In this document: one piece after another, positions 1 through 21,781 of the stretch
Position numbering within the stretch: the stretch's first letter is position 1
Layout of the letters: each line of letters starts with the position of its first letter
IMG/VR virus record: IMGVR_UViG_3300037042_001781
Coordinates: 1-21,781 of that record
Length of the DNA: 21,781 bases
DNA from: a virus
Strand: one strand, 5' to 3'
The notes under the pieces: generated by a model
Databases searched by the model: none
Told to the model about the DNA's origin: nothing
The model's input: the letters and a program-made list of their open reading frames with translations, nothing else
Position numbers and translations under genes: made by a program

Positions 1-3000
1 CTGCTTTCCCTATTGAACTTCTTGAATACACTATAAAAAATAATCCTTTTAAAACTCCAAAGACTATTACACAAAAAGATAGCTCTTTAGTAATCGCAAA
101 CATAAAAGGATCTAGTATAAGTGTTCAGGATTTATTAGAAGTTCCTGATACTTTTGATGCACGTACTGCAAGATATCTTAATGATGGTACAAGTTTGCCT
201 CACCCACTTGTAGGTACACCAGAGCAAATAGAAGAAAACAAATTAAAGAATGCTTTTAATTCTAGCGTTGACCCTATTACTTATCCTATACGACCAACAG
301 TTGGATTTAACCAAGATGCTCACTGGGATGATGATTGGCAAAACAATAAGCAGTTTAAATATAAATCAGATGGAGCTACTTTAGGAGGAGAGGGCCCAAA
401 TATTAGTTATAAATTTCATTTAGAACCATTTACTTTAGATGGAGATAACCCTACAGTAGGATTTGCAAATGTAAGCAATACTCCTGATTTTGTTTATACC
501 CATAATTTTAATGATGGATATGGCACTTATGAAAATACTACTTATCCAAACTTTGCGTCGCCTTTTTTATCAGGTTTAATGCGTGGATATAAACGCGGAG
601 AAACTTATCGATTTGGAATAATTTTTTATACTTTAAAAGGCGAAGCTACTTTTGTAGAATATATTGGAGATATTAAATTTCCTGATATTTCTGAAGAAGA
701 CTCTAGCGACAATAATTCCGAAAGTCGTTATTGGCCTATGCATAGAATAGGCAATGAACTCACAGGAGGTATTACTAGAAATACTGTAGGTTTTAATTTA
801 GGAATAGAATTTACTATTGATTTAAGCTCATGTCCTAGTTTATTAAATCAAATTACAGGATATCAAATAGTAAGAGTACAAAGAGAAGAGCAAGATAGGA
901 GAAGATATGCTCAAGGATTTGTAAAAGGATTTTGGTTTGCTCCTATAGCAGGAAAAGAATTTGATTTTGATTTAAGAGGTCCTGGAGAATCTGATCAAGT
1001 TTTACATTTATATCCATATTATCCTAGTGGAACAGGGGGAGCTAGTACTTTATATACAAACGCTTCTTTTGGAACATTACAAGACAATCAATTAGATCCG
1101 TCTCCTTATGTACCTATAACACAAGACTCTGGAGAAGATCCTTTAGATTATCTTTTAAAAGGACAGCATCTAGGATTTTATTCTCCAGAAATATCTTTTT
1201 CTTACGAAGGAGCAAGAACTGTTATGCCTAGTTTAGCAAGCAATCCTTGTTTGTTAATTACAGGAGCATATTTTGGAGAAGAGGCTGATGATGGTAGTGC
1301 TACTCCTTACGATCTAAGCACTGACGGTTTAGGATCTTTTTGTCTTGATAGAAGATCTATTTTTAGACGTAGTTTACCCGTTACTTTTAACAATAAAGAG
1401 AACATTAAAAAATGGTCTGATTTAAGTTTACAAGTAATGCCAGATGATAGTGATTATACTCAAAAAATTACTAGCAATTTTGCAGGGTTTTATATGCGTA
1501 ATTATTATGCAATAGATGATTACACTGAAGCTTATAATAGTCCTGGACCTGATTTAAATGATCCACAAGGAGATCCTCTTACAGGTACTAGTGATATTCC
1601 TCAAATAATAAAAGCAGGTACAAGTATTATAGGAAAACTAGGAAAAATTACTCAAGATTTTTTTACACAAGATACTATCAGTTCCTCTGCTTATGATTGG
1701 TTTAGAGCTCCTGACTTAGTAAGACCTACAGACTGGTTTGGAGTTCCTTTTGATATAATAACAGAAAGAGATGAAATAATTACTACTTATCCAATAGTAG
1801 ATTACGTATTACCTAAAAGTGAAACATACGGAGGTTTTACTAAAGATGCTCTTGAAAATAATATTTTCATTATAGCTTCCCCAGTAATTAGCAAAGATAA
1901 TCTAGTAGCAAACACGCATACTTTTAAAGTATTTGGCGGAGATATCTTTATCAATATGTTTACTGCGCAAACAAAAACTATAGAATTTAATACTGACTTT
2001 TTTGATAATAATAAATACCATCAAACTAATAGTGAGACTCAGTTATTTCCTGTAGAATCTATAATGAATTTAGAGTTAGCTTACGGGGCTACTTTAAGAA
2101 CTGAAGTAACCTATAACTTCGGAACTCAAACTTTAACAATTCTACGCCAAGAAAATGACAATGCTTCTACAACTTACGGAAAGACCGCAGCTAAAATGTA
2201 TGCATATAATCCAGTAAACAGTAGAGAGAATCGAGATGTTACTTTCTTTACGGAACCAGTTAATGCTAAAAACTGTGTAGTAAATGATATTAGAGCTTAC
2301 TTATCTAATGTCAAATTTAATGACGAAACTATAGACTCTTGGACAAAATTTGGAGTAAACAATTTCTATGATGTCGATGATTACGGACCGATTAATAAAA
2401 TACTTAACTACAAAGACTACGTCTATTTTGTCCAAGACAGAGCTTTTGGGGTCTATGCAATCAACAGGGCAGCTATCACAACTACTGCTGACGGAGTGCC
2501 GACAGCTTTGGGAACTGGACAAGGTTTTGGTAAGCACCAGTATCATTCAAAAACTCATGGTTCTATTCACCAATGGGGTGTAAAAAGTACTGATACAGGT
2601 ATATACATATTTGATGCTATAGCAAGAAAAATATTTATGTTTGCTGCTTCAGCTTATCAAGCACAAAATTCTCCTTTATCAGAAATGACAGGAATTCACT
2701 CTTGGTTACAAGCCTTACCAAATGCTGTATTCTACAGAAAAGAAAATAATGGCGATAATCCTGTACTTAAAAAAGGAATGACTATTGCTAGAGATGTTAA
2801 TAATGATGAAGTTATTTTCACTTTCTTAGGATCAGGAGATTACGAACTGCTTACTATTAATACCGAGTATACTCAAGGAACAGTTGTATATATACCAGAA
2901 ACTGATACTTACTATTTAGTAACAGATACTTTTACTACAGGAAATGATCCTAAAAATTTATTCTTTGAACTAGCTGCCAATGCAGATGTTAAAACTCCAG

Positions 3001-3551
3001 AAGAATTAAACTTAGAAGATGACACTATAGTATATGATGAGTTGATGCAGAAATTTTCCTCAAGATATTCTGCTACTCCTAAAATATGGATAGAGAACTC
3101 TGATATATTAATGAGCGCTGATCCTAGTAATCCTGATATAGTTTATACTCACAACATAGGAAATTGGGGAGAATTTTACGGTAACACAGAAGAATGTTCT
3201 ATAAGCTTAGTGATTAATCCACAAGCAGATATGAATAAAGTACTTAGAACTATAGAATTTAATAGTATAGTTAGAGATGATAATAAAGTTATAGACAGAA
3301 CTAAAACTATTACTGCGTTTAAAATTCAGACTCAATATCAAGATACACTTAAGACACCTTTCTCTTCAGGAAGAATCATGCGTAAGTTTGACAAATGGAG
3401 AGTTAAAATTCCTAGAGATCAACTAAGCGTATCTAAACAAGGACGTTTGCGTAGTACATATTTTATTTTAACTTTATACTTCGACAATTCTGATAACAAA
3501 GAGTTGATCACAAATCGTTTGATGTCTTACTTTGATTACCAAATGTTCTAA
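1..3551 (+). CDS. Tail muzzle / P22 gp10-like stabilization protein of crAss-like phage (5' partial)
   Basis: The frame is open from the left edge (in-frame from base 3), giving about 1182 visible residues. The first possible internal start, TTG at 195, is not the real start because coding sequence continues upstream. Visible landmarks are an early aromatic/acidic stretch (HWDDDW, about 322-340), RGYKRGETYRFGIIFY followed by YIGDIKFP (about 586-690), a beta-rich middle, a propeller-like stretch (DYVYFVQDRAFGVYAINRA, about 2415-2470), and a C-terminus with WRVKIPRDQL, STYFILTLYFDN and a terminal aromatic. I recognise this pattern from crAss-like proteins annotated as 'stabilization protein' and seen as the tail 'muzzle' in virion structures. 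It would sit at the distal tail and retain the packaged DNA and proteins. Its place directly upstream of cargo-type genes fits. Assignment is by recollection of the family; length and composition are seen directly. Stop TAA overlaps the next ATG. Confidence 0.8.
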   Translation, partial: AFPIELLEYTIKNNPFKTPKTITQKDSSLVIANIKGSSISVQDLLEVPDTFDARTARYLNDGTSLPHPLVGTPEQIEENKLKNAFNSSVDPITYPIRPTVGFNQDAHWDDDWQNNKQFKYKSDGATLGGEGPNISYKFHLEPFTLDGDNPTVGFANVSNTPDFVYTHNFNDGYGTYENTTYPNFASPFLSGLMRGYKRGETYRFGIIFYTLKGEATFVEYIGDIKFPDISEEDSSDNNSESRYWPMHRIGNELTGGITRNTVGFNLGIEFTIDLSSCPSLLNQITGYQIVRVQREEQDRRRYAQGFVKGFWFAPIAGKEFDFDLRGPGESDQVLHLYPYYPSGTGGASTLYTNASFGTLQDNQLDPSPYVPITQDSGEDPLDYLLKGQHLGFYSPEISFSYEGARTVMPSLASNPCLLITGAYFGEEADDGSATPYDLSTDGLGSFCLDRRSIFRRSLPVTFNNKENIKKWSDLSLQVMPDDSDYTQKITSNFAGFYMRNYYAIDDYTEAYNSPGPDLNDPQGDPLTGTSDIPQIIKAGTSIIGKLGKITQDFFTQDTISSSAYDWFRAPDLVRPTDWFGVPFDIITERDEIITTYPIVDYVLPKSETYGGFTKDALENNIFIIASPVISKDNLVANTHTFKVFGGDIFINMFTAQTKTIEFNTDFFDNNKYHQTNSETQLFPVESIMNLELAYGATLRTEVTYNFGTQTLTILRQENDNASTTYGKTAAKMYAYNPVNSRENRDVTFFTEPVNAKNCVVNDIRAYLSNVKFNDETIDSWTKFGVNNFYDVDDYGPINKILNYKDYVYFVQDRAFGVYAINRAAITTTADGVPTALGTGQGFGKHQYHSKTHGSIHQWGVKSTDTGIYIFDAIARKIFMFAASAYQAQNSPLSEMTGIHSWLQALPNAVFYRKENNGDNPVLKKGMTIARDVNNDEVIFTFLGSGDYELLTINTEYTQGTVVYIPETDTYYLVTDTFTTGNDPKNLFFELAANADVKTPEELNLEDDTIVYDELMQKFSSRYSATPKIWIENSDILMSADPSNPDIVYTHNIGNWGEFYGNTEECSISLVINPQADMNKVLRTIEFNSIVRDDNKVIDRTKTITAFKIQTQYQDTLKTPFSSGRIMRKFDKWRVKIPRDQLSVSKQGRLRSTYFILTLYFDNSDNKELITNRLMSYFDYQMF

Positions 3552-7286: not shown

Positions 7287-9461
7287 ATGAACTTTAAATC
7301 AAATGCCGCATACAAAGCATGGTTAGGATACGGACATGCTTCAGGAGAATTTGCAAAAACTCCTGGAAATCAACCTGTTAGTATTGCAGGAAAAACACAT
7401 GATGTACAACATGCAATGGGAGGAAATCTTTATGCTGCTGGAGGTAGTTTTAATAACTCTGGATTTCAATCATTGCCCCCTGCTATACAAGAAAAAATTC
7501 GTAATAGTGCAGGATACGGCGGACAGTTATTTGCAGGAGGAGGTCCTATGAGTCAAATTACTGAATTTAAAGCAGGAGGCTCTCATGAAGAAAATCCTCT
7601 TGGCGGTATTCCTCAAGGTATGAGTCCTGATGGTAGATTAAATCTTACAGAACAAAACGAAGTAAAAAGAAATAGGACTGACGATGGTGAAGGAGACTAC
7701 GTATACTCTGATAGAATTAATGTAGAAAAAGATATCGCTGAACTATATGGTCTTCCTAAAACATTTATAGGAAAAACTTTTGCAGCAGCATCTAAGTTAG
7801 CTAATCGTCCTAACTCTCGTAGAGAAAATGATACTATCGAAGAACAAGATATTAAAAGAAAACTTACTCAAGTAGAACAAGCACAAGAAGCTCAAAAAGC
7901 AGAAATGGATAAGAAAGAAAAGGCTGAGCAATTAGCAGCTAATCCTGCATTACTAGATGCGTTAACGCAACAACTTGCAGCTAATCAATCTGTACAACCA
8001 ATGGGAATGCCTCAAGGGCAACCTATGGATCCTAACCAAATGGACCCAGCAATGTTAGCACAAATGGAAGGAGCTGCACAAGGTCAACCTATTATGGCTT
8101 ATGGTGGACACATGTATATGTGCGGAGGAAAGATGTATGACTTTGGTGGATTTGTAGATAATAATTCTGCAGGTTTAGCTGGAGCTGGAACTGGTGCTTT
8201 GTCTGGTGCTAGTACTGGAGCAATGATAGGATCAGCTGTTCCAGGAATTGGAACTGTAATTGGAGCAGGTGTAGGTGCTGTAGTAGGAGGAACTGCTGGA
8301 TTCTTTAAAGGACATAAACAAGATAAAGCTGAAGAAGAAGCTAGACAAACTGCACAACAACAGCAATTAGCTCAAAGCAATCAGATGAATTATGCTCCTC
8401 AAAGTCCTTATGTAACACCTGCAGCTACTAATACAGTAGGGGGATTACCTACTTATTCTGCTGCACAAGGAGGTCCTTTGTATCATGAGTTTCCTCAGAT
8501 TAATCCTGATTGGAAAAATCATGCAGGTCCAATGGGACAAGGATTAACTAATACACAGATTTATAAATACGGTGGCTCTTTTCAAATGCCTCGTCAACAA
8601 ATGTACATGCCTCTTGATAATGTAGAAGCATTTGGAGGAAATATGTTTACTAGAGAGTTAGGTGACGGAGATTATAGAGAACCTCAGCCTCAAAATTGGA
8701 ATAATACAGATGATAATGCTAATGGTATTCCTGATTATTTAGAATTAGAAAGTCTACAAAAATCCCTTGTAGAAGCAGAAAGTAATGAAGAATATGATGC
8801 TTTAATGGAAAAATATAAATCTGCTCTAGAAAGATTAAATACTGGAATGACAGATCAGAATTTAGATCTTACTATTAAAGCTAATCCTCTAGAAGCAGCT
8901 GCTATGGCATTGCCTGCAGCTTATAATATTGGACAAGGATTATTTGGAAAAGTATCACAGCTTAATGCAGAAGATTATACTAACACTGCTAATATCGAAC
9001 CTTATCAATATAATATCAATCCTCAATTAAGAGAAGCTCAATATACTTATGCTCAAGCACAAGATGCTATAAAAAATGCAGGAATAAGTGGCGGTAATTA
9101 TGCTTCTAATATGCAACAACTTGCTAATACTAGAAATGAAGATATTAACAAATTGTATACAGAAAAACAAAATCTTGATGCACAAAGCGCTATGCAAGCT
9201 CAGTTAGCTAACAGCCAAATAAATGCTCAAAATCAAGATTTAAAAATGAAGGTTGATGATTATAATGCTAGAGCTAGAGCTGCTAAACAACAATCACTTA
9301 ATACAGGATTAAGTCAAGTAGCTAGTATTGGAGACGCTTTCTTAAATATGAAGAAAGATGCTACACTTGCTAAAGCAATGGCGCCTGATTTTTCCGAGAC
9401 TTTAAAATTAATTTTAGGAACAAAAAACACTGGAACTTCAGGAAATACTTCTAAAGGATAA
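7287..9461 (+). CDS. Second GG-motif virion protein with glycine zipper and coiled C-terminus (crAss-like cargo type)
   Basis: 724 residues. The N-terminus (FKSNAAYKAWLGYGHASGEF, then KTPGNQPVSIAGKTHDVQHA) resembles one I recall from crAss-like virion proteins. GG pairs follow: MGGNLYAAGG, YGGQLFAGGG, GGHMYMCGGKMYDFGG. Residues 97-142 carry SHEENPLGGIPQG and then DYVYSDRI, another recurrent element. A Gln/Met/Pro-rich stretch lies near 229-268. Residues 295-342 form a 48-residue Gly/Ala-rich glycine zipper with GxxxG spacing, ending FFKG, which could insert into or span a membrane. DDNANGIPDYLE (475-486) matches a calcium loop (DxNxNGxxDxxE). The C-terminal ~170 residues are Ala/Gln/Asn-rich and probably helical. 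It may be a paralogue of the preceding protein, with the GG motifs as docking or assembly tags. Inference: an ejected or internal virion protein, possibly helping DNA cross the envelope. No enzymatic domain recognised. Confidence 0.8.
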   Translation: MNFKSNAAYKAWLGYGHASGEFAKTPGNQPVSIAGKTHDVQHAMGGNLYAAGGSFNNSGFQSLPPAIQEKIRNSAGYGGQLFAGGGPMSQITEFKAGGSHEENPLGGIPQGMSPDGRLNLTEQNEVKRNRTDDGEGDYVYSDRINVEKDIAELYGLPKTFIGKTFAAASKLANRPNSRRENDTIEEQDIKRKLTQVEQAQEAQKAEMDKKEKAEQLAANPALLDALTQQLAANQSVQPMGMPQGQPMDPNQMDPAMLAQMEGAAQGQPIMAYGGHMYMCGGKMYDFGGFVDNNSAGLAGAGTGALSGASTGAMIGSAVPGIGTVIGAGVGAVVGGTAGFFKGHKQDKAEEEARQTAQQQQLAQSNQMNYAPQSPYVTPAATNTVGGLPTYSAAQGGPLYHEFPQINPDWKNHAGPMGQGLTNTQIYKYGGSFQMPRQQMYMPLDNVEAFGGNMFTRELGDGDYREPQPQNWNNTDDNANGIPDYLELESLQKSLVEAESNEEYDALMEKYKSALERLNTGMTDQNLDLTIKANPLEAAAMALPAAYNIGQGLFGKVSQLNAEDYTNTANIEPYQYNINPQLREAQYTYAQAQDAIKNAGISGGNYASNMQQLANTRNEDINKLYTEKQNLDAQSAMQAQLANSQINAQNQDLKMKVDDYNARARAAKQQSLNTGLSQVASIGDAFLNMKKDATLAKAMAPDFSETLKLILGTKNTGTSGNTSKG
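8169..8312 (+). other. Glycine-zipper segment (protein residues 295-342)
   Basis: A Gly/Ala/Ser/Thr/Val/Ile run of about 48 residues with repeated GxxxG spacing (e.g. GAGTGALSG, GIGTVIGAGVGAVVGG) and no charged residue until FFKG. Such segments pack as membrane helices or oligomeric pores in other proteins. In an ejected phage protein this suggests an envelope-crossing element; function is inferred. Confidence 0.6.
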
Positions 9462-12077: not shown

Positions 12078-15000
12078 ATGGGTAAAAAGCAAAAAACGGA
12101 AAATCTAATTACTCCTAAAAGTACAGAGGAAGGATTTATAACCAAGATAGCTAAAGAACAATCTAAAGAAAAAATAGCTAGTGGAGAATACTTTGATCCT
12201 GAATATATTAAAGAACATGGACAAGGAGCAGAAGCTGATTACCAAGGAATAGATACTTTTTATGGGCAGCTTAATAAAGATGCTTTTGATAAATATGCAG
12301 ATTATATTGGTGAAGAAACTCTGAAAGGGGGCCAATATGATTTCAATGAGTTAAATAAAATGCGAGCAGAAAACCAATCTAATTGGGAACAAGCTGGAAA
12401 TGCAATAGGAAGAATTGCTACTAATATCTTACCACAAACTGTAGCAGGATTTGCTTCTATGTTAGATATCCCTGGATATTTTAGTGCAGAAGAAGCAGCT
12501 AATAACTCTATAGTCAACTGGGCTATGGATGCTAAAAAAACTGTAGATGAAGACTGGTTTCCAATCTATGAAGAATCTCCAGGTACTTCTATGAATATTT
12601 CTGATCCTGCATGGTGGATGTCCAGAGGATCAGGACTTGTTGAATCTATTGGATCTTTCTTACTTCAAGGAGCAGGAATGGGTAAAATAGTTTCAGGAGG
12701 ATTAAAAGCTATAGGAGCAGCAACTAATAGTCAAAAACTTGCTAGTGCCATAGTAGGAGCAGAAAGATCTAAAATGGCGGGACAAGGATTAGCAGGTTTA
12801 ACTAACGCTGTAGCCTTAAATCAATCAGAAGCTGTATTAGAAGCTACTCAAGTATTTAGAGATACTTATGATGAGCAGTTAGAAAAGAATGGAGGAGATA
12901 TAGCAAAAGCAAAACAAGCTGCCTCTGTTGCAGCTTCTACTACTATGAATCTTAATAAGATGAATATCTTATTAAACCTTTCTTCTGCTTCCGCTTTTAT
13001 TACTCCTTTAAAGTATACAAGAAAATTACTTGATGCCCCATCTCTTTCTAAAAATTTAATGCATTTAGGAATAGAAGGAGGGCAAGAAGCTGCCGAAGAA
13101 CTAATAAACCATGTTGCTTCTAAAGCAGGTATGGCTAAAGGAAGAGGCGAAGAATACGATATTAAAAATGCTTTTGATGATATGGGAACAATGGAAGGCT
13201 TTGAAGCAGCTTTCCTTGGAGCTATTGGAGGTATAGGACAAACAGGAGGTACTAATTTATATAATAAAACTAAGTACTCAGGAGGTCGAGACGAAAACGG
13301 TAATCGTGTTAGTGTCTATGAAACTGAGAAAAATAGATACGACCAACAACAAAAAGTAATTCAAGAACTAAGAGATAAAGGAGTTAATACTACAGATGTA
13401 TTAAAATCTTATAAAGATCAATTAGTATTCCAAGATAAGTTAACTAAAGCTCATGAAAAAGCTAAGACTACAGGAGATTATTCTGAAGTAGAAGCTTTAA
13501 AAACTGAGATGTTTGAGAACCAAGCTATTAAAGCTTTTCAATCTGGAACAACTCAAGTATTAGAAGATCTATATAAAGCTGAAGCAGCTAGACCTGTTGA
13601 AGAAGTTGGTCAAGAATATGTAGACAATGCTAATAATGCTATTAAGCAATTAAAACAGCTCGAAGGAATTTATAATAACTTCGAAAACTATTCTAATGTA
13701 GATGAGATATTCTATAATAGAGCTAATAAAAATCGCATTGAGCGAAGAGCTAATGATATAGAAAATGCTAAGAAAACTACTGATTTAGATTTACATAAAC
13801 AAGTAGCAGAAATAGCTAAAAAATATGAGTTTACTAATGAACAAGAAGTTCTTCTTAAAAAAGAAGGACAAGTAGTAGGAACAGAAAAGAAAACTTCTAC
13901 GGGCCCACTTACTTATTCTCTTAGTGATATTCAAACAAACCAAGGAAACACTGAAGAGAATCAAAAAGTATACGACAAGTTTCTTGCTGAAGTAGAAAAA
14001 CTACCTGCTTACCAAAAAGCAGATCAGTATAATAAGCAGTCAGAGGCTATTAATAAAACTCTTATTGAAAATGAAAAAGAGTTTCAAGATATTACTAGTG
14101 AGAAACATCAAGAAAAAGTAGCTCAACAAAAAGCTAATGCAGTTAAATTAGAGCAACTTAAAAAAGATTTAGAAGGTGCTAAAACTAAATCTCAAATAGA
14201 AAATTTAAAAAGTGCTACTAACGATGAAGCATTTAGAAAAGCGGCTGATGCTAAAATAGCTGATATAGAACTTAACAATGTAAAGACAGCTAAAGCAAAA
14301 GAAATTCAAGTAACTATAGATAATCTAAATAATAAGATTACCAACTCTACTTTAGAGGATATAGAAGATGTTAGAAAAGAAGTAGACAGTGCGCAACTAT
14401 CTCAAAAAGACAAGCAAAATCTTTATGATAATTTAAACATCCAAGCTAAAAAATTAAATGGAGAGCCAGTGCCTGAACCAGGTGACGAAGGCGGCCTTTC
14501 TGCTTTTGGCTTTACTGCCACTAATCCAGAAGAAGACGGAGGAGTTGTTGTAGATACTAAAAAGAATGAAGATGATCTAAAGAATAATCAAGCAAACTTT
14601 GAAACTTCTATTCCTTCAGACTATGTCAATCCTAACACTGAGAAGGAATCTATCGAAGAAGGTGTAGCAAATGCAGCTACTTCTTTATTGAATACTGATA
14701 AAACTATGGTAGTCGGAGAAGATGAAAACGGCAACTTAGTTTATAATTATTCTCGTAGTGAAGAAGGTTTTAACCGTGCTGCTTATCTTTCTAGAGAGAT
14801 GAATCAAACTGAAGAAGTATCATCAGTAGATAGAGAAGAGTTTACAAACGAAATAGAAAATGCTAAAGTATTAGATCCTGACTTCTTAACTCCAGGTACT
14901 GAGTTAGTAATGGAGGTTGATACTGAATACTCAGGTGAGAAATATGACCCGACTTCTAATACAAGAGAAACCATTGCTTGGAATCTAAGATTAGAAGAAC

Positions 15001-18000
15001 TTCAGAAAATGGCTGATGAAAAAGGAGTTCCTTTAAATGAACTTGATGAGTACATCGATGAAGTGCCTATTAAAGTAACTACTAAAGACGGCGAGACTGT
15101 TTTCTACGTACATGATAATGCTTGGTATAGAGAAGAGAATCTAGACAATACTATTGAAGCTATTGGTTTAGATAAAGCTAAGAACCATGAGATAAGAAAA
15201 GAAATTATTAAATCAGGAAAGGTTAAATCAAAAGTTACCTATAAAAGTATGGGTAGATTATTTAAGACTTATGATAATAAATCTATTCCTGTATCAGAGG
15301 CTATGCCTGACGGTAATCTTATTTTGGCAATTGGCCGAAGTGATAGTTTTGAAGTAGATCTTAACGGCGCTACTTTATTACCTTCTACTCCTCAAAATGG
15401 TAGACTTTATGCAGTTGTACCAGTGGGTAAAGATACTTACTTACCTATCCCGTTAGAAAGACAACCACTTACAGAAGAATCTATTGACTCTATAGTATTT
15501 GCTATAGAAGGGTACTTGTCTCAAGACAGAGAAAATCCTGTAGTAAAAGCTATAAGAGAATCTAGTTTAGGTTTAGATATTACCGAACTTGCTCAGTTAG
15601 GTAAATACATAAGTCAATTTGTAGGTTTATTTTCTACAGAAGGAACACAAGGGCTAGAGCCATTTTTAATTTACGGAGGAACAAATAGTTCTCTTAAAGC
15701 TAATCATCCTATTATTGCAGTTACCGCAACAGGTATTGAATTTGGTCGACCTGGAATAGAGAATGGTAGCTACATGCAAAACGGCAAAAAAGTAGTTAGA
15801 TTTACAGCAACTATTGCTGCTAACTTTAAGGATAAGAATGCCATGTATCGCAACAAAGAAACTTTAGATAAGAAGTTGCGACCTATGTTAAAAGCAATGA
15901 TGTCCAATGCAGATCGTAGAACTCTTGCTATGGACGGAGATGCTGTTATCATTCTTAACTCTCAAGGAGAAACTAGTACTAAAAAATATACTGAGTTCTT
16001 AAAAGAAACTCACAAGACTAATATCTTATCTGTTAACACAGGCACTGAGGAAAATCCTAAATGGGCTTATACTATTCAGCCTACTATTCTTTTTGATACT
16101 GCCTTTGCTGATCTGTCTAAAATCAAACCAGCAGCAGTTGCTAAAGGTGTGCCTAAAGCAGCTCCTGCTATGCCTACAGTAACTCCTAGTCTTTCAAATG
16201 CTGAAGTAATAAAACAAGCTGATGAAATTATTAGTTCTGAATTAAAGTTTCTTCAAGATTTATTAAACAATGCAGATAAAGAAAATGATAAAGCAATAGA
16301 ATTTCTTACTAAACAAATAAAATCTTTACAAGAAAATCCTATTGAATATTTTAAAGATCTAACAAAATCAAGTGGAGATCCTGCATATACAGAAAAAGCT
16401 GAAACAATTTTAAAAGCTGAAAAACTTAAAAATAAACCAGCCGCTCCAGCAGCAGATTCTATAGAAGCTAAGAAAGCTGACATAGAAAAAAGGAGAATGG
16501 CTGATATTAAAGAGTATTATAAGCAAGATTTTACTGGAAAAACTAAATCTATTCAAGAATTAGAAAAAGAATTACAAGACATCAATGCTAAATATGATGC
16601 AGAACTAGCTGCTTCGGAACAACCTACTACTCAAGAACCAGTTACTCCAGAAACAGAAGTAGAAACTTTAACAGGTGATGCGCTTATAGAAAAACATGCT
16701 GAAGAAATTCTAAAAAGTGTTGGAGATAGCAAAGAAGCTTTTGGTCAGTTAGAAGAAAATTTAGAAGGGCTTAAAAACATTAAAGAGGCTATAGCTTCTA
16801 ACGAAGTATCTTTTGACCAAATACTTCCAGATTTACAAGCAAATGGATTTGAATCTTTAGAAGATGCTATTGCTTCTTTGCAAAAAGCTGTTGAGCTTTT
16901 TAATAGCCGAGCAGAGAACAAAGATACTTTTGTTTTACCTGACGGTACTATTGTAGAGCTAGATGATAATACACAAGATGCTAGTGATATAGATGATGAC
17001 ACTGTAGATGAAATGATCTCTCCTATGGATGCTACACAGATAGACGCTGTGAGAACTGAAGTAGAAGATATGATTATTCGAGGATTAGATCCTGCTACAC
17101 AAGCATCTTTAATATCTTACATTGCTTCGGATATTATTTCCAGAGCAATGGAAGCAAAAGACAAAGGCAAAAAAGATGGAGTTAAAACTGCTCCTATTTT
17201 TGCTGAGCATAAAAAGTCTTTAGAGAGTCTTGAGAAACTTTACAAGTCTAAAAACTTAGTAAACAAAGCAGCTAGGATTCGTGCAGTACTTGATCAATTT
17301 GACAAAGTAAATAAGCTTGTAGAACAGAGAATAAGATTACTTACTACAGGAACAGTACAAGAAGATATTACTTTAGATGATAGTGAAGAAGCAATGGGTC
17401 TAGAAAAAGTTGTCTACACTGATGACTGGGCATTCACCGTTAATTCCAAATCTACTGCTTCTGCAGATCTTAAAAAGTTCTTTGTAGGTATTAGAGCAGT
17501 AGACGAAAATGGTAAGCCTCTAAGCAATATTTTAGGCCTACCTGAGATCATGTCTTTTGATACAGTTTATAATACTCTTCATGAGTTATTAGCAAACCGT
17601 CCTGCTGATTATGACCATATGATTGAAACTCTTGGATTGTATCAAGAAAAGTTTCCTTGGATTCAAGCAGTAGTAGATAAACTAGAGAAAGCTCCTGAAA
17701 AAATCCAAAATGAATTTGTATCTGATATGGCTAAGCATCATATCGATATGAAGTTCCTTATGTGGAGTAAAGACAGAAATGGCAATTACTCTTTACAAAG
17801 ATGGTCAAGTAACTCTTCTTCTATAGAACAAAGATTACGTAATGTTTGGCAATCTAACCTTAAAGGAGTAGGTACACAAAGTAATTTAGTTACTCTAAAT
17901 GAAAACAATGAATATGTCTTCAACGAAGATGTAGTTGATAGTCTTATTCAGCAAGCTCAAGTTTTTAAACAAGACCCTACTAAAGTAACCAATGAAGACT

Positions 18001-20501
18001 TAGCTAACTGGCTAGGACAGTTTGGTATCGTAATTACTGATGATACTTATAGAGATTTACGTAAAGGAGATTTTAAAAATAAAGGAAAGAAAAGCTGGGC
18101 CCAATTATTTACTAATGATGCAGGTTTAGTTTTTGCTCTTGCTAAGCAATTAGGAAAGCAAAAATTCATGCTTTTAGATGATGCTAAGATTTTAAATGAT
18201 TCTGTAGTAAAAGCACTTGCTAAGTTAGATGCACTGAATAACATGAACACATTCAGTAACTCTTTCCAAGCAGGAGGTAAAACGGTTTATTCTTATGGTA
18301 ATAATAATTACCTAGTAAACCGTATGCGAGATCTTACAGCATATGATCATAGCACTAAGAAATTTGTAAATCAAAAACTTATAGATGACCTAAAACAAAT
18401 ATCTTTTACTAAGGATAGTTTGTGGCTAAATGATCTTACTAGTGAAGGCACTATAGGCGACATGACAAGAAGTACTTTAGATATAGGATACTTGTCATTA
18501 GAAGCTTTGAAAAAATTATTCACAGAATCTAAAGATAATAGAAAACTAAATAATCTTTCTACGGCAGAACACGAGCTTACTAAAATAGGATTCTTCCAAA
18601 GAGTTTCTGGAGAAATTGTAAAGGATCATGAAACAGGAGTTTCTGAGCAACGTCGTTCTGTAGACTTCTTCTATCCTACTATGTCTGATAAGACTACTAT
18701 GTTACTTATCAGTGGTCTAACTCGACAGTTAAAACTAAATGCTGAAGGAAATATTTCAGATGAAAACATTAAGTTATTATACAAAGCATTAGTAACTCCT
18801 GAGATTAATCGTATTAGATCTAAACAATCTAAAAACATTAAAGGATACGAACCAAACTATTTTTATTTCTTGCCTAGTTTAAATACTTTAGAAGTAGAAG
18901 TAGATGGTCAAACAAGAACTTTCCTAGATATAGTTAAGGACGGTAATGATTCTATGAATGAATACCAAGTAGAGAAAGCAGTACTAGATGAGATTCGATC
19001 TGTCTTTGATGGACTACTTGAAACAAAGTTAGCAGATTGGAAAAAACTAGGTATAGGTCAAGAAGTTAAAGATGATAAAGGCAAAGTAATAGAGAAGTAC
19101 TCTTTTATGGATAAAGCCTATATGACAGACGTAGCAAAAGAAGGCAAAGGAACTAATAGAGTTAAATACGCCGCTATGGATTATGTATTTAATTACTTAA
19201 TTGCTAACTCTGAAGCCTTTAAACTATTTGCTGGAGACCCTGCTTTGTATGGTAAGTTTAGTGAAAACAAAACTTTGCAAGAAAATTTAGAAGAAACTTT
19301 TGTCAACATAGGTAAACGTCTTGCAGGAGATATCGCTCCAGGTATAGAGCTAGCTAATAGTGCTAACAATAAATACTACCAAGTATTCTTCCAAGATAAA
19401 AAACTAAATAGTAATAACGTAAAAGACTCAATTCAAAAAGAATTCTTTGAAAAGGTTATTACTAATTACGCAAAAAACTATTCAGGTATTGAAGGGTCCG
19501 ATGCACAAGAATATACTACTTGGCAAGAGCATCTATATGTGATGAAGCAATTAGGCCGTATCACAGATGCACAATATAATACCTTTAAAACTAAGTTAGA
19601 AGCGCAGAGTGAAGGAATCTTTAAAAGATCTACGCAACTTACTTTTGATGAGTTAGGTATCATTATGCAGCCTATGAAGCCTGTATATGTAGGTAACATC
19701 TCTTCTACAGAAGACAATGCAGACAGAAGAGTTTATATTAAATCTTCTAGTTTCCCACTTATTCCTGAGCTTACAAGAGGTTTACAGATCGATAAGATTC
19801 GTCAGTCTATTGAAAAGTTTGAAACAGAAGAAGGTACAAAAGTTACTTCTGATGGTAATCCTGCATTTGTTAGAGCTTCCTTTGGTACTGCTAACAAAGT
19901 TGGAGCAGTAGCTAATGCTGTAGAAGTGTTTGACAATGACGGCAATGTGCTTGATAACATGGAAGTTAAACTTGAAAATAGCCTATTGCTATCTAGAGAA
20001 AACTTCAGAATCCAACAGGATGTACCTTACAAACGTGATAAATCAGAAACTAACATTGGTACTCAGGAACGTACTCTACTATTTGCAGACTTACTTGATC
20101 TTAAAATAGATGGAGAGATTACTGGAGCAGAGTTAATGGAAATGTACAATAAACAGTACGAAGAACTATTTGCTTACGCTAACGAGAAACTTTCTAAAAG
20201 ACTTGGCTTGATTCAAACAGTTACTACTGAAAGCAATATAGAAAGCCTTCTTATAATACCTACAGGAGATATGTTTACTAAAGCAGAAGAGTTATCTGAG
20301 AAATTAGATAAAGCTTCTCCTATAGAGAAAGTTAAGCTTCAACAAAATTTTGCAGATGAAGTAGGGGAAGATACCCTAGAAAGAGTTAACTTTATAAACA
20401 AAAACTTCGACAAGATCGTAGAACAACTAGCTAAAGCTAAGATGAACTTCTTCTTTGACGAGACTCAAAAAGAAAATGAAGAATTTAAAAAATGTGATTA
20501 A
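12078..20501 (+). CDS. Giant virion protein containing the N-terminal part of the crAss-like RNA polymerase module
   Basis: 2807 residues. The N-terminus has amphipathic or hydrophobic stretches: NWEQAGNAIGRIATNILP from 102, WWMSRGSGLVESIGSFLLQG near 180-200, MNILLNLSSASAFITPL 295-311, EGGQEAAEEL 333-342 and FEAAFLGAIGGIGQTGG 375-391. I associate these with giant crAss-like ejected proteins. Residues about 415-800 are charged and coiled-coil-like, then come Pro/Gly/Ala-rich linkers at 797-820, 1351-1372 and about 1454-1540. The C-terminal ~600 residues carry family landmarks: YPTMSDKTTM (about 2199-2208), GDPALYGK (2386-2393), PMKPVYVG (2532-2539), KSSSFPLIPELTRG (2555-2568) and FVRASFGTANKVG (2597-2609, K2607). 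By memory these precede the DFDID half in the one-chain polymerase of Cellulophaga phage phi14:2. I infer the N-terminus aids ejection and the C-terminus contributes one DPBB; it lacks the catalytic aspartates. Stop TAA overlaps the ferritin ATG. The ORF is certain; the polymerase link is probable. Confidence 0.75.
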   Translation: MGKKQKTENLITPKSTEEGFITKIAKEQSKEKIASGEYFDPEYIKEHGQGAEADYQGIDTFYGQLNKDAFDKYADYIGEETLKGGQYDFNELNKMRAENQSNWEQAGNAIGRIATNILPQTVAGFASMLDIPGYFSAEEAANNSIVNWAMDAKKTVDEDWFPIYEESPGTSMNISDPAWWMSRGSGLVESIGSFLLQGAGMGKIVSGGLKAIGAATNSQKLASAIVGAERSKMAGQGLAGLTNAVALNQSEAVLEATQVFRDTYDEQLEKNGGDIAKAKQAASVAASTTMNLNKMNILLNLSSASAFITPLKYTRKLLDAPSLSKNLMHLGIEGGQEAAEELINHVASKAGMAKGRGEEYDIKNAFDDMGTMEGFEAAFLGAIGGIGQTGGTNLYNKTKYSGGRDENGNRVSVYETEKNRYDQQQKVIQELRDKGVNTTDVLKSYKDQLVFQDKLTKAHEKAKTTGDYSEVEALKTEMFENQAIKAFQSGTTQVLEDLYKAEAARPVEEVGQEYVDNANNAIKQLKQLEGIYNNFENYSNVDEIFYNRANKNRIERRANDIENAKKTTDLDLHKQVAEIAKKYEFTNEQEVLLKKEGQVVGTEKKTSTGPLTYSLSDIQTNQGNTEENQKVYDKFLAEVEKLPAYQKADQYNKQSEAINKTLIENEKEFQDITSEKHQEKVAQQKANAVKLEQLKKDLEGAKTKSQIENLKSATNDEAFRKAADAKIADIELNNVKTAKAKEIQVTIDNLNNKITNSTLEDIEDVRKEVDSAQLSQKDKQNLYDNLNIQAKKLNGEPVPEPGDEGGLSAFGFTATNPEEDGGVVVDTKKNEDDLKNNQANFETSIPSDYVNPNTEKESIEEGVANAATSLLNTDKTMVVGEDENGNLVYNYSRSEEGFNRAAYLSREMNQTEEVSSVDREEFTNEIENAKVLDPDFLTPGTELVMEVDTEYSGEKYDPTSNTRETIAWNLRLEELQKMADEKGVPLNELDEYIDEVPIKVTTKDGETVFYVHDNAWYREENLDNTIEAIGLDKAKNHEIRKEIIKSGKVKSKVTYKSMGRLFKTYDNKSIPVSEAMPDGNLILAIGRSDSFEVDLNGATLLPSTPQNGRLYAVVPVGKDTYLPIPLERQPLTEESIDSIVFAIEGYLSQDRENPVVKAIRESSLGLDITELAQLGKYISQFVGLFSTEGTQGLEPFLIYGGTNSSLKANHPIIAVTATGIEFGRPGIENGSYMQNGKKVVRFTATIAANFKDKNAMYRNKETLDKKLRPMLKAMMSNADRRTLAMDGDAVIILNSQGETSTKKYTEFLKETHKTNILSVNTGTEENPKWAYTIQPTILFDTAFADLSKIKPAAVAKGVPKAAPAMPTVTPSLSNAEVIKQADEIISSELKFLQDLLNNADKENDKAIEFLTKQIKSLQENPIEYFKDLTKSSGDPAYTEKAETILKAEKLKNKPAAPAADSIEAKKADIEKRRMADIKEYYKQDFTGKTKSIQELEKELQDINAKYDAELAASEQPTTQEPVTPETEVETLTGDALIEKHAEEILKSVGDSKEAFGQLEENLEGLKNIKEAIASNEVSFDQILPDLQANGFESLEDAIASLQKAVELFNSRAENKDTFVLPDGTIVELDDNTQDASDIDDDTVDEMISPMDATQIDAVRTEVEDMIIRGLDPATQASLISYIASDIISRAMEAKDKGKKDGVKTAPIFAEHKKSLESLEKLYKSKNLVNKAARIRAVLDQFDKVNKLVEQRIRLLTTGTVQEDITLDDSEEAMGLEKVVYTDDWAFTVNSKSTASADLKKFFVGIRAVDENGKPLSNILGLPEIMSFDTVYNTLHELLANRPADYDHMIETLGLYQEKFPWIQAVVDKLEKAPEKIQNEFVSDMAKHHIDMKFLMWSKDRNGNYSLQRWSSNSSSIEQRLRNVWQSNLKGVGTQSNLVTLNENNEYVFNEDVVDSLIQQAQVFKQDPTKVTNEDLANWLGQFGIVITDDTYRDLRKGDFKNKGKKSWAQLFTNDAGLVFALAKQLGKQKFMLLDDAKILNDSVVKALAKLDALNNMNTFSNSFQAGGKTVYSYGNNNYLVNRMRDLTAYDHSTKKFVNQKLIDDLKQISFTKDSLWLNDLTSEGTIGDMTRSTLDIGYLSLEALKKLFTESKDNRKLNNLSTAEHELTKIGFFQRVSGEIVKDHETGVSEQRRSVDFFYPTMSDKTTMLLISGLTRQLKLNAEGNISDENIKLLYKALVTPEINRIRSKQSKNIKGYEPNYFYFLPSLNTLEVEVDGQTRTFLDIVKDGNDSMNEYQVEKAVLDEIRSVFDGLLETKLADWKKLGIGQEVKDDKGKVIEKYSFMDKAYMTDVAKEGKGTNRVKYAAMDYVFNYLIANSEAFKLFAGDPALYGKFSENKTLQENLEETFVNIGKRLAGDIAPGIELANSANNKYYQVFFQDKKLNSNNVKDSIQKEFFEKVITNYAKNYSGIEGSDAQEYTTWQEHLYVMKQLGRITDAQYNTFKTKLEAQSEGIFKRSTQLTFDELGIIMQPMKPVYVGNISSTEDNADRRVYIKSSSFPLIPELTRGLQIDKIRQSIEKFETEEGTKVTSDGNPAFVRASFGTANKVGAVANAVEVFDNDGNVLDNMEVKLENSLLLSRENFRIQQDVPYKRDKSETNIGTQERTLLFADLLDLKIDGEITGAELMEMYNKQYEELFAYANEKLSKRLGLIQTVTTESNIESLLIIPTGDMFTKAEELSEKLDKASPIEKVKLQQNFADEVGEDTLERVNFINKNFDKIVEQLAKAKMNFFFDETQKENEEFKKCD
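20486..20490 (+). promoter_or_regulatory. TAAAA translation-initiation motif before the ferritin gene
   Basis: TAAAA lies inside the last codons of the giant gene, 10 nt before the ferritin ATG at 20501, which itself overlaps the giant gene's stop (TAATG). Both the spacing and the overlap support this start and suggest coupled translation. Confidence 0.5.
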
Positions 20502-20986
20502 TGGAACAGTTCAAAGATGTTATACTAAGTGATGCAGAATTAAAAGAGCTTAATAAGTTTGGAACTTTTGAGCTAACTGCTTCTCATACTTATTTAAAAC
20601 TTTCTAACAAAATGAAATCTTTGGGCTATTTTGGCGCAGAGAAATTCTTTGTATCAGAATCAAATAGTGAGCGAGAACACTATCTTAAACTCGAAGCATT
20701 TGCTAATGATCTAGGAGCTGAATTAGATGTTCCTGCTATACAGTCAGTGCAATGTGATTGTTCTGATATCAGAGGAGCACTTATGATGGCTTACGAAATG
20801 GAGAAAGATCTTATGATGTCATACGAAGAGTCTGCACAAAAAATGGATTTATCTTTAAAAGTAAGATTATTACTTCAAGATTTTACTACACATCAAGTAG
20901 GAGCTGTAGGTGAATACGGAGATTTATTAGCAAGAATAGCTCTAACAGATAACATGTTATTGTTTGACCAGGAACTAGGTAAATAA
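20501..20986 (+). CDS. Non-heme ferritin (FtnA-like), phage-encoded
   Basis: 161 residues, close to bacterial FtnA (165). Comparing from memory with E. coli FtnA gives a constant offset of 7: E24 (for E17), Y31 (Y24), E57 (E50), H60 (H53, within SEREH) and E101 (E94). Q132 in THQ matches the FtnA glutamine at 127, and the C-terminus NMLLFDQELGK resembles the FtnA tail (LYFIDKELS). So the di-iron ferroxidase centre looks intact. FtnA E129/E130 are replaced by G134/A135, so the third iron site is probably altered. The QxxA pattern, not ExxH, argues against bacterioferritin; it is longer and differently arranged than rubrerythrin-only domains. C85 and C87 in the loop between helices are unusual. 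Expected role: a 24-mer shell oxidising Fe(II) and storing iron. It sits between the two polymerase-module genes, overlapping the first by one base, 7 nt before the second, and shares their transcript. Possible roles are iron sequestration, oxidative-stress protection, or a virion part (inference). Confidence 0.9.
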   Translation: MEQFKDVILSDAELKELNKFGTFELTASHTYLKLSNKMKSLGYFGAEKFFVSESNSEREHYLKLEAFANDLGAELDVPAIQSVQCDCSDIRGALMMAYEMEKDLMMSYEESAQKMDLSLKVRLLLQDFTTHQVGAVGEYGDLLARIALTDNMLLFDQELGK

Positions 20987-20993
20987 ATATTAG

Positions 20994-21781
20994 ATGGCTT
21001 GTTTATATTTTGTAAATGAAAACTGGATTTCTGAAAATCAGTTTAAAGAACTATTGAACAATGGTTTATTAGATAATCTAATTTCTAATAAAACAGTTGA
21101 TTTAAAAGGTTTTAAAATAGATAAAAGTAAAATATTATCTAAAGAGACAAAAGAAATTCGCAGAGCCACTATTCCTGCAAGGAAACTAGCTGATATTCTT
21201 GCACATGAAGTTAGGAATCGTCAAGGTTATCCAGCAAATATGTTGTCCGCCTTAGAACTCAACATTGTAAAGAATGAAGATGGAACTATAAATGAAGAGC
21301 TTACTGATTTTAAAATTCCTCTTTGGGCTTCTCCTTATGCAAATAAGTTTGAAAGCTTGCTTACATCTGTAGTCAGCAACAAAGTAGTTAAACAAAAACT
21401 ACCAGGTAACTCTTTTGTACTAGGTTCTGAAGAAGGATTTAGAGTTAAAGAAGGCGATGAAGCAACAGGAGAACTTGAAAATTCTAATATAGTTTTTACA
21501 GAAGGCTTTGACCCAGTTAAAGGATTGCAACCACTACGTTGGGATCCTGAGACAAAGACAATGCTTCCTGCACAAATTATGATACCGTTTAAATTCAGAG
21601 ATGAATCAGGCGAGATCCTCGAATTGAAAAATTTTATCAAGCGAGGTGAAGACGGCAGAATGATGCTCGATCATGATAAAGTCCCTAAGAAACTAATGCA
21701 GCTTTTTGGTTTCCGTATCCCTACTCAGAAGCAAAACTCAATGGCAGCTGTAGAAATAGTAGGGTTCTTACCTGAAGCATC
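20994..21781 (+). CDS. crAss-like virion RNA polymerase, catalytic DPBB-containing part (3' partial)
   Basis: ATG at 20994, 7 nt after the ferritin stop; 262 complete codons are visible with no stop and the frame runs off the right edge. TAAAT lies 9 nt upstream. Landmarks: CLYFVNENWISENQFKELL (3-21), IPARKLADILAHEVRNRQG (about 60-78), KFESLLTSVVSNKVVKQKLP (118-137), LRWDPETKTMLPAQIMIPF (181-199) and FGFRIPTQKQNSM from 239, then VEIVGFLPEA to the end. FGFRIPTQ parallels the 'RAPTLHR' arginine segment before the DFDGD loop of cellular beta' subunits. In crAss-like polymerases I recall the same segment followed, about 20-30 residues after FLPE, by a 'SDFDIDK'-like catalytic loop; that part lies beyond the window. 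Role: DNA-dependent RNA polymerase packaged in the virion and injected for early transcription. The catalytic aspartates are not visible, so activity is inferred from the family. R241 is the proposed active-site arginine. Confidence 0.8.
   Translation, partial: MACLYFVNENWISENQFKELLNNGLLDNLISNKTVDLKGFKIDKSKILSKETKEIRRATIPARKLADILAHEVRNRQGYPANMLSALELNIVKNEDGTINEELTDFKIPLWASPYANKFESLLTSVVSNKVVKQKLPGNSFVLGSEEGFRVKEGDEATGELENSNIVFTEGFDPVKGLQPLRWDPETKTMLPAQIMIPFKFRDESGEILELKNFIKRGEDGRMMLDHDKVPKKLMQLFGFRIPTQKQNSMAAVEIVGFLPEA

Follow-up and report, generated by a model that had tools for sequence, protein, structure and literature searches.

A ferritin gene between the halves of a split giant virion protein in crAss-like and other phages

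Ferritin, the ferritin-like genes of phages, the virion cargo of crAss-like phages and the polyvalent proteins are all already known (PMC8008677, PMC10172136, PMC5512222). Phage-encoded members of the ferritin superfamily include the Dps and ferritin-like genes of gut phages (PMC8008677) and a protein annotated as non-heme ferritin from a marine phage that is uncultured (BFVD A0A8D9C9X5), and in crAss001 three proteins associated with RNA polymerase (RNAP) are virion cargo (PMC10172136). Here we analyse a 21,781-nt stretch of virus DNA, hereafter the window (IMG/VR record IMGVR_UViG_3300037042_001781, positions 1 to 21,781), in which a ferritin gene lies between two giant virion open reading frames (ORFs). 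The ferritin forms the middle of a portable cassette, which begins with the C-terminal tail (C-tail) of the upstream giant, ends with the N-terminal head (N-head) of the downstream giant and splits one giant virion polypeptide in two; this anatomy is near certain. In the open-access literature searched, no report was found of a ferritin-superfamily gene in such a split-giant position, of ferritin in crAss-like phages, of terminal cysteines in ejected proteins, of a shared tail and head, or of a function for ferritin in this position, the last in line with what the initial annotation, made from the letters alone, had presumed. The cassette appears undescribed.

Judged from its sequence, the window gene encodes a genuine ferritin of the ferroxidase type and belongs to a clade specific to phages. 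It shares with classical 24-mer ferritins (FtnA, H-ferritin; PF00210) the fold, the length, the short fifth helix and the diiron ligands, whereas its family occupies a deep phage-only branch of the tree, carries the signature AVGEYGDL and is encoded in virion blocks; the marine phage ferritin is only 25% identical. The gene (20501..20986, plus strand) encodes 161 aa without internal stop, and its product matches Pfam Ferritin PF00210 with 48.9 bits (E 8e-13), above the curated cut-off of 24.5. The AlphaFold2 (AF2) model shows an intact four-helix bundle with a short fifth helix (152-159), at a predicted local distance difference test score (pLDDT) of 95.5 and a predicted template modelling score (pTM) of 0.89. 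The top PDB matches of this model in Foldseek are 24-mer ferritins (TM-score about 0.86-0.90); the window protein may assemble as a 24-mer as well. The ferroxidase ligands that the initial annotation had read from the sequence, E24, Y31, E57, H60, E101 and Q132, are all in place and invariant across 18 close relatives by alignment. Among full-length phage relatives, all but position 31 are invariant in 98/98, and that position is Tyr in 59/98, as in the window, and Trp in 39/98. The Trp variant, found among loci L038 to L184, may alter the chemistry. The ratio of nonsynonymous to synonymous substitution rates (dN/dS) is 0.02-0.10 over 12 close pairs (0.056 against the L002 relative); the gene is therefore kept for its protein and is, as had been proposed, no decayed passenger. 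No conserved Cys was found within the ferritin in the alignment of relatives, and a role for such a residue as a third link between the giants was rejected on that ground.

The upstream giant (12078..20501, plus strand; 2807 aa) comprises the first part of the virion cargo chain and the N-terminal half of the RNAP chain (hhalign), and the downstream giant, of which the window holds 262 codons (20994..21779, plus strand), begins the catalytic half. The ferritin ATG shares one base with the upstream TAA (20499-20501), and 7 nt separate its stop from the next ATG at 20994, both as first annotated. The downstream giant is 78% identical to an ORF of 2393 aa in L002, matches PHROG 16227 (virion structural protein, E 1e-25) and aligns to crAss001 gp50 1309-1490 (hhalign). 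Its earlier assignment as the catalytic polymerase stands by homology only, with a DFDVD motif at residue 280 in the L002 homologue and 270 in that of L008, as the gene is truncated by the window end after 262 codons and the motif itself is not in the window. Upstream, the giant aligns to FpV4 gp32 at 723-1702 and 1868-2884 and also to the RNAP chain of the L006 type (hhalign). Its alignment to FpV4 stops at profile column 2762 of about 2853, leaving the C-tail (~90 aa, approximate bounds 20226..20498, plus strand), which carries the helix motif NFDKIVEQL, ends in FKKCD and is not in the unsplit FpV4 protein. Where FpV4 passes from 2884 to its next matching part at 2900, the window type has this C-tail closed by a stop codon, then the ferritin and after it an N-head of ~64 aa (MACLYFVNENWISENQFKELLNNGLLD; 20994..21185, plus strand), which is supported by an alignment and recognised across lineages.

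There are two crAss architectures of the ferritin locus, the window type and the L006 type. In the L006 type, as in crAss001 gp50 and FpV4, profile alignment finds the RNAP chain continuous: in the L006-type chain, the last part of the window-type upstream giant corresponds to columns 934-1831 (probability 99.1) and the first part of the downstream giant to columns 1833-2518 (probability 99.6). The same ferritin, with a matching N-head, separates in the L006 type a part equivalent to the first half of gp47 from one equivalent to its second half. N-heads of the two architectures are homologous (probability 98, E 1e-13), and the C-tails match weakly by profile (E 0.0012, probability 19%) and clearly by eye in several members. 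The cassette is placed at two different sites in crAss proteins, so that the split site shifts and the cassette is kept. On the ferritin tree, the two architectures are interleaved (6 and 5 changes), which points to movement or exchange of the cassette. These two positions had escaped the initial annotation, as had the conserved terminal cysteines and the docking-like motifs described below. A search for a junction scar in unsplit giants gave no convincing match.

Relatives were gathered by IMG/VR searches with the ferritin protein and alignments of its relatives; they were chosen by ferritin sequence, not by neighbours, and the reach is this clade only. Once the phage loci were collapsed, 102 distinct ferritins remained, none clearly cellular. 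About 75 of the 102, spread over several phage groups that are unrelated to one another, have a giant virion ORF on either side. The remainder come after a portal gene (PHROG 6547, E 3e-64) or an unsplit giant, or stand near a Mu-like portal; nearly all adjoin giant virion ORFs or portal and head genes. Every ferritin-bearing virus record searched whole has one copy. The junction recurs in a contig of 90% identity, as it does in dozens of others, which rules out an oddity of a single genome and the assembly artefact that had been considered at the outset. In the tree, which includes only three cellular rows, two of them identical, the phage ferritins are all found on the same side of a long branch. 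The genome scan gave no close cellular relative; the only matches were two phage-like fragments of metagenome-assembled genomes (MAGs), namely a Rhodoferax contig with the ferritin behind a giant ORF bearing a single near-terminal Cys, and a Zoogloea contig with a ferritin fragment behind an ORF ending in Cys. The 150 genomes of one phylum, with Bacteroidota not separately sampled, contained only distant cellular ferritins. A scan with the start of the window's RNAP returned one contig, already among the known loci.

The giants flanking ferritin range over about 0.4-3.3 thousand aa. In the non-crAss groups they include matches to ART-PolyVal, RelA/SpoT-like, ParB, nuclease and other polyvalent-type domains, like the polyvalent proteins of phages and plasmids, whose description (PMC5512222) mentions neither ferritin nor terminal cysteines. 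By BLASTP they share with crAss giants only the N-head in L048 and L111, and one common domain in L062/L063, and RNAP profiles found no match among 161 long ORFs from non-crAss loci. A specific tie between ferritin and RNAP is therefore rejected: the earlier view of a ferritin embedded between two RNAP parts is true in the window but too narrow, since unrelated giants flank the ferritin elsewhere. A downstream giant at L165:6487-11535, with an ART-PolyVal match and weak RelA/SpoT and ASCH matches, is likely an injected polyvalent protein.

What these giants have in common is found at their ends. They mostly carry a single Cys, close to the C-terminus in upstream giants and close to the N-terminus in downstream ones. 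The sole Cys of the 2807-aa giant of the window is its second-last residue (20493-20495), and the sole Cys in the 262 codons of the downstream giant is codon 3 (21000-21002). Among 68 upstream giants, 60 have exactly one Cys, which is C-terminal, with 8 interior Cys in 113,636 residues altogether, and all downstream giants (71/71) have a Cys within the first 10 residues. In the widespread pattern, a first protein bears a C-terminal Cys, a middle protein a Cys at both ends and a last protein an N-terminal Cys, the outer ends being without Cys. Although related sequences inflate these counts, the rule recurs in every group, and the bodies are unrelated from one group to the next. It also holds in the cultured, ferritin-free crAss001, phi14:2 and FpV4, for consecutive virion RNAP cargo proteins. 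The crAss001 (gp47, gp50, gp49) and phi14:2 (g065-g067) cargo proteins belong to the same family as the window giants but, unlike these, have no ferritin between them and show no clear C-tail and N-head motifs. Other named Crassvirales also follow the rule, some of the gut phages having additional Cys in the interior; together with crAss001, phi14:2 and FpV4 these are loci L022-L024 and L221-L227. The FpV4 RNAP chain, unsplit and without C-tail, ferritin or N-head, has only the outer C-terminal Cys, and four unsplit giants (2088-3073 aa) of ferritin-bearing head-module phages have no Cys at all, the other long ORFs of the same genomes having mostly 3-41. The simplest reading is that Cys pairs arise where the chain is broken, standing in for the lost peptide bond. 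With regard to annotation, crAss002 gp33 (L223) has its Cys at residue 35, just after an internal Met-Ser; its start is probably annotated ~32 codons too far upstream, and a Met-Ser-Cys start would restore the rule. In cr114_1 (L227), the virion genes contain many in-frame stops under table 11, a stop codon probably being reassigned.

Ahead of the Cys, upstream C-tails share the helix motif [NSK]-F-x-x-I-[IVL]-x-x-L, and downstream N-heads have in common Cys-x-[YF] and, after it, a helix containing [EA]-[FL]-K-x-[YL]-L. Motif profiles were made after trimming Met-to-Cys and Cys-to-end and were compared against 10,000 interior windows, taking the top 0.1% as the limit. Profiles of one group recover other groups above this limit in many cases, the KIC head profile recovering 23/23 crAss heads and 18/18 INCD heads; some directions fail, the Bact_other profile recovering 0/18 INCD heads. 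The similarity persists after trimming both residues, and its attribution to Met and Cys alone is thus rejected. The ends of the giants are common, and their bodies are unrelated across groups. Split megasynthases are an analogy, with no homology claimed: there too, docking domains give one giant chain a tail that matches the head of the next.

The gene context supports the earlier placement of the ferritin in the late virion block. The order in the window is a partial crAss muzzle protein (3..3551, plus strand; Pfam crAss_MUZ, E 5e-86), which puts the window in a crAss-like phage, a second large ORF, a homologue of cargo protein 1, the portal-bound ejection protein of crAss001 (7287..9461, plus strand; Pfam crAss_CARG1, E 6e-24; 33% identity to gp45), an 855-aa ORF, the 2807-aa giant, the ferritin and the next giant. 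Muzzle, cargo protein 1 and RNAP chain come in the order of the Crassvirales virion module, and the ferritin lies among core virion genes, not outside them as a host-derived auxiliary metabolic gene would. Downstream giants of L003, L004, L005, L007 and L008 have the same ends at lengths of 1509 to 2478 aa; that of L008 includes a superfamily 1 (SF1) helicase part (Dda/RecD-like) at 1938-2397, which seems optional. Ferritin is also encoded beside capsid-interior proteins in encapsulin-ferritin cargo, again an analogy without claim of homology. Since the neighbours of the phage ferritin (portal, ejected giants, head genes) share the head interior, a late head-associated role, packaged or assembly-linked, is favoured. 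Among the functions first suggested, a structural or cargo role would fit this context best, and control of iron or reactive oxygen species may be considered possible.

We propose that the C-tail of the first giant docks on the N-head of the second and that their sole cysteines form a disulfide, a step that we regard as fairly likely; the disulfide itself is given slightly better than even chances. Disulfides between virion proteins are known in crAss001 (PMC10172136). The linked giants would act as one chain, ejected in order as one train, to part in the reducing cytoplasm. With less certainty, the ferritin would be made late and in step with the first giant through the start-stop overlap, and would be co-assembled with the giants or packaged beside them inside the head, where its ferroxidase might remove Fe2+ and peroxide otherwise harming cargo, thiols and genome during assembly and storage. 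Packaging in the particle is a tentative idea, which we put somewhat below an even chance. The explanation as a whole (a ferritin cassette splitting the giant, disulfide-docked ends and a protective ferroxidase co-assembled with the cargo) comes close to an even chance without reaching it. Its most ambitious version, in which the cassette inserts by its own coding ends at various sites in giant ejected proteins, the halves being re-joined by a single disulfide and the ferritin built into the particle, is rather unlikely.

Several observations weigh against this proposal. Both the disulfide and the ferritin in the particle are deduced from sequence and gene context. A 24-mer ferritin cage is ~12 nm in size. 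The tail constrictions of crAss001 are <5 nm (PMC10172136), and such a cage could therefore not pass the tail. Ferritin is also present where the giant is unsplit, and the Cys pair is kept at ferritin-free junctions, both in crAss001 and phi14:2 and in crAss-like contigs with the same C-tail/N-head junction (L091, L093-L095, L101, L102); no ferritin was found anywhere in the L095 (83.6 kb) and L102 (88 kb) contigs, and ferritin is therefore not required. Cys is found only at the facing ends, as expected for disulfide-linked giants, except in the L090 downstream giant (6 Cys), in gut crAss P2 proteins (3-7 Cys) and in the L045:2-5998 upstream giant, which is broken, by a split or a frameshift, into ORFs of 909 and 1087 aa with no Cys at the break. 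Low Cys content may also be general to ejected proteins. Lastly, no cultured phage with this ferritin was found in INPHARED by tblastn, the window and L055 ferritins having no match and the L065 ferritin a single one, at 25.6%, in a 4.9-kb record without annotation.

The main rival is an ordinary late auxiliary gene, whose soluble and unpackaged ferritin would store iron and lower Fenton damage in late infection, the junction being simply a highly transcribed gap. The full ferroxidase site under purifying selection, the oxidative-stress functions ascribed to ferritin-like and Dps genes of other phages (PMC8008677) and the dispensability of ferritin in some relatives all agree with it. However, an auxiliary gene free of such ties should turn up in other blocks as well, and nearly all 102 relatives sit in the virion block beside head-interior genes, in several lineages and at two split positions, so that we hold this alternative to be unlikely, though well ahead of those that follow.

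A second alternative takes up the encoding of ferritin exactly between two thiol-bearing ends, seen in ~75 distinct relatives: peroxide from the ferroxidase, released beside the paired thiols, would drive the disulfide that joins the giants. Ferritin is nevertheless kept in phages whose unsplit giant is free of Cys, which led us to demote a dedicated thiol-oxidase role; moreover, Cys pairs persist without ferritin, and no separate ferritin accompanies the second crAss junction (P2/P3), making such a role very improbable. Slightly less probable still is a hitchhiker, a ferritin that moves with the docking tail and head by whole-cassette recombination and has no role tied to the giants. The interleaved crAss architectures and the ferritin-free junctions would suit it, but not the low dN/dS, the invariant catalytic residues or the separate placement of ferritin beside portal genes in phages with unsplit giants. 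Least probable is a metal link, in which the terminal cysteines would be ligands of a Zn or Fe-S site common to both ends, with iron supplied or buffered by the ferritin. Near-unique paired Cys do occur at every junction, and the gene in between codes for an iron protein, but a single Cys at each end is few for a metal site unless the ends oligomerise, no other conserved metal ligands were seen in tails and heads, and Cys pairs are present without ferritin.

If the proposed docking and disulfide are true, they would represent a novel means of dividing a protein train and joining it up again, and would bear on how giant proteins leave the phage head in the right order through a narrow tail. The cysteine rule marks the ends that face each other, and thereby gives a direct and testable wiring diagram, also for cultured crAss001 particles. 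If packaged, this would be, to our knowledge, the first ferritin to be located within phage particles. Through the cassette, virion cargo is connected with iron chemistry in several phage lineages, most of them metagenomic, and whether phage particles contain iron would become a concrete question.

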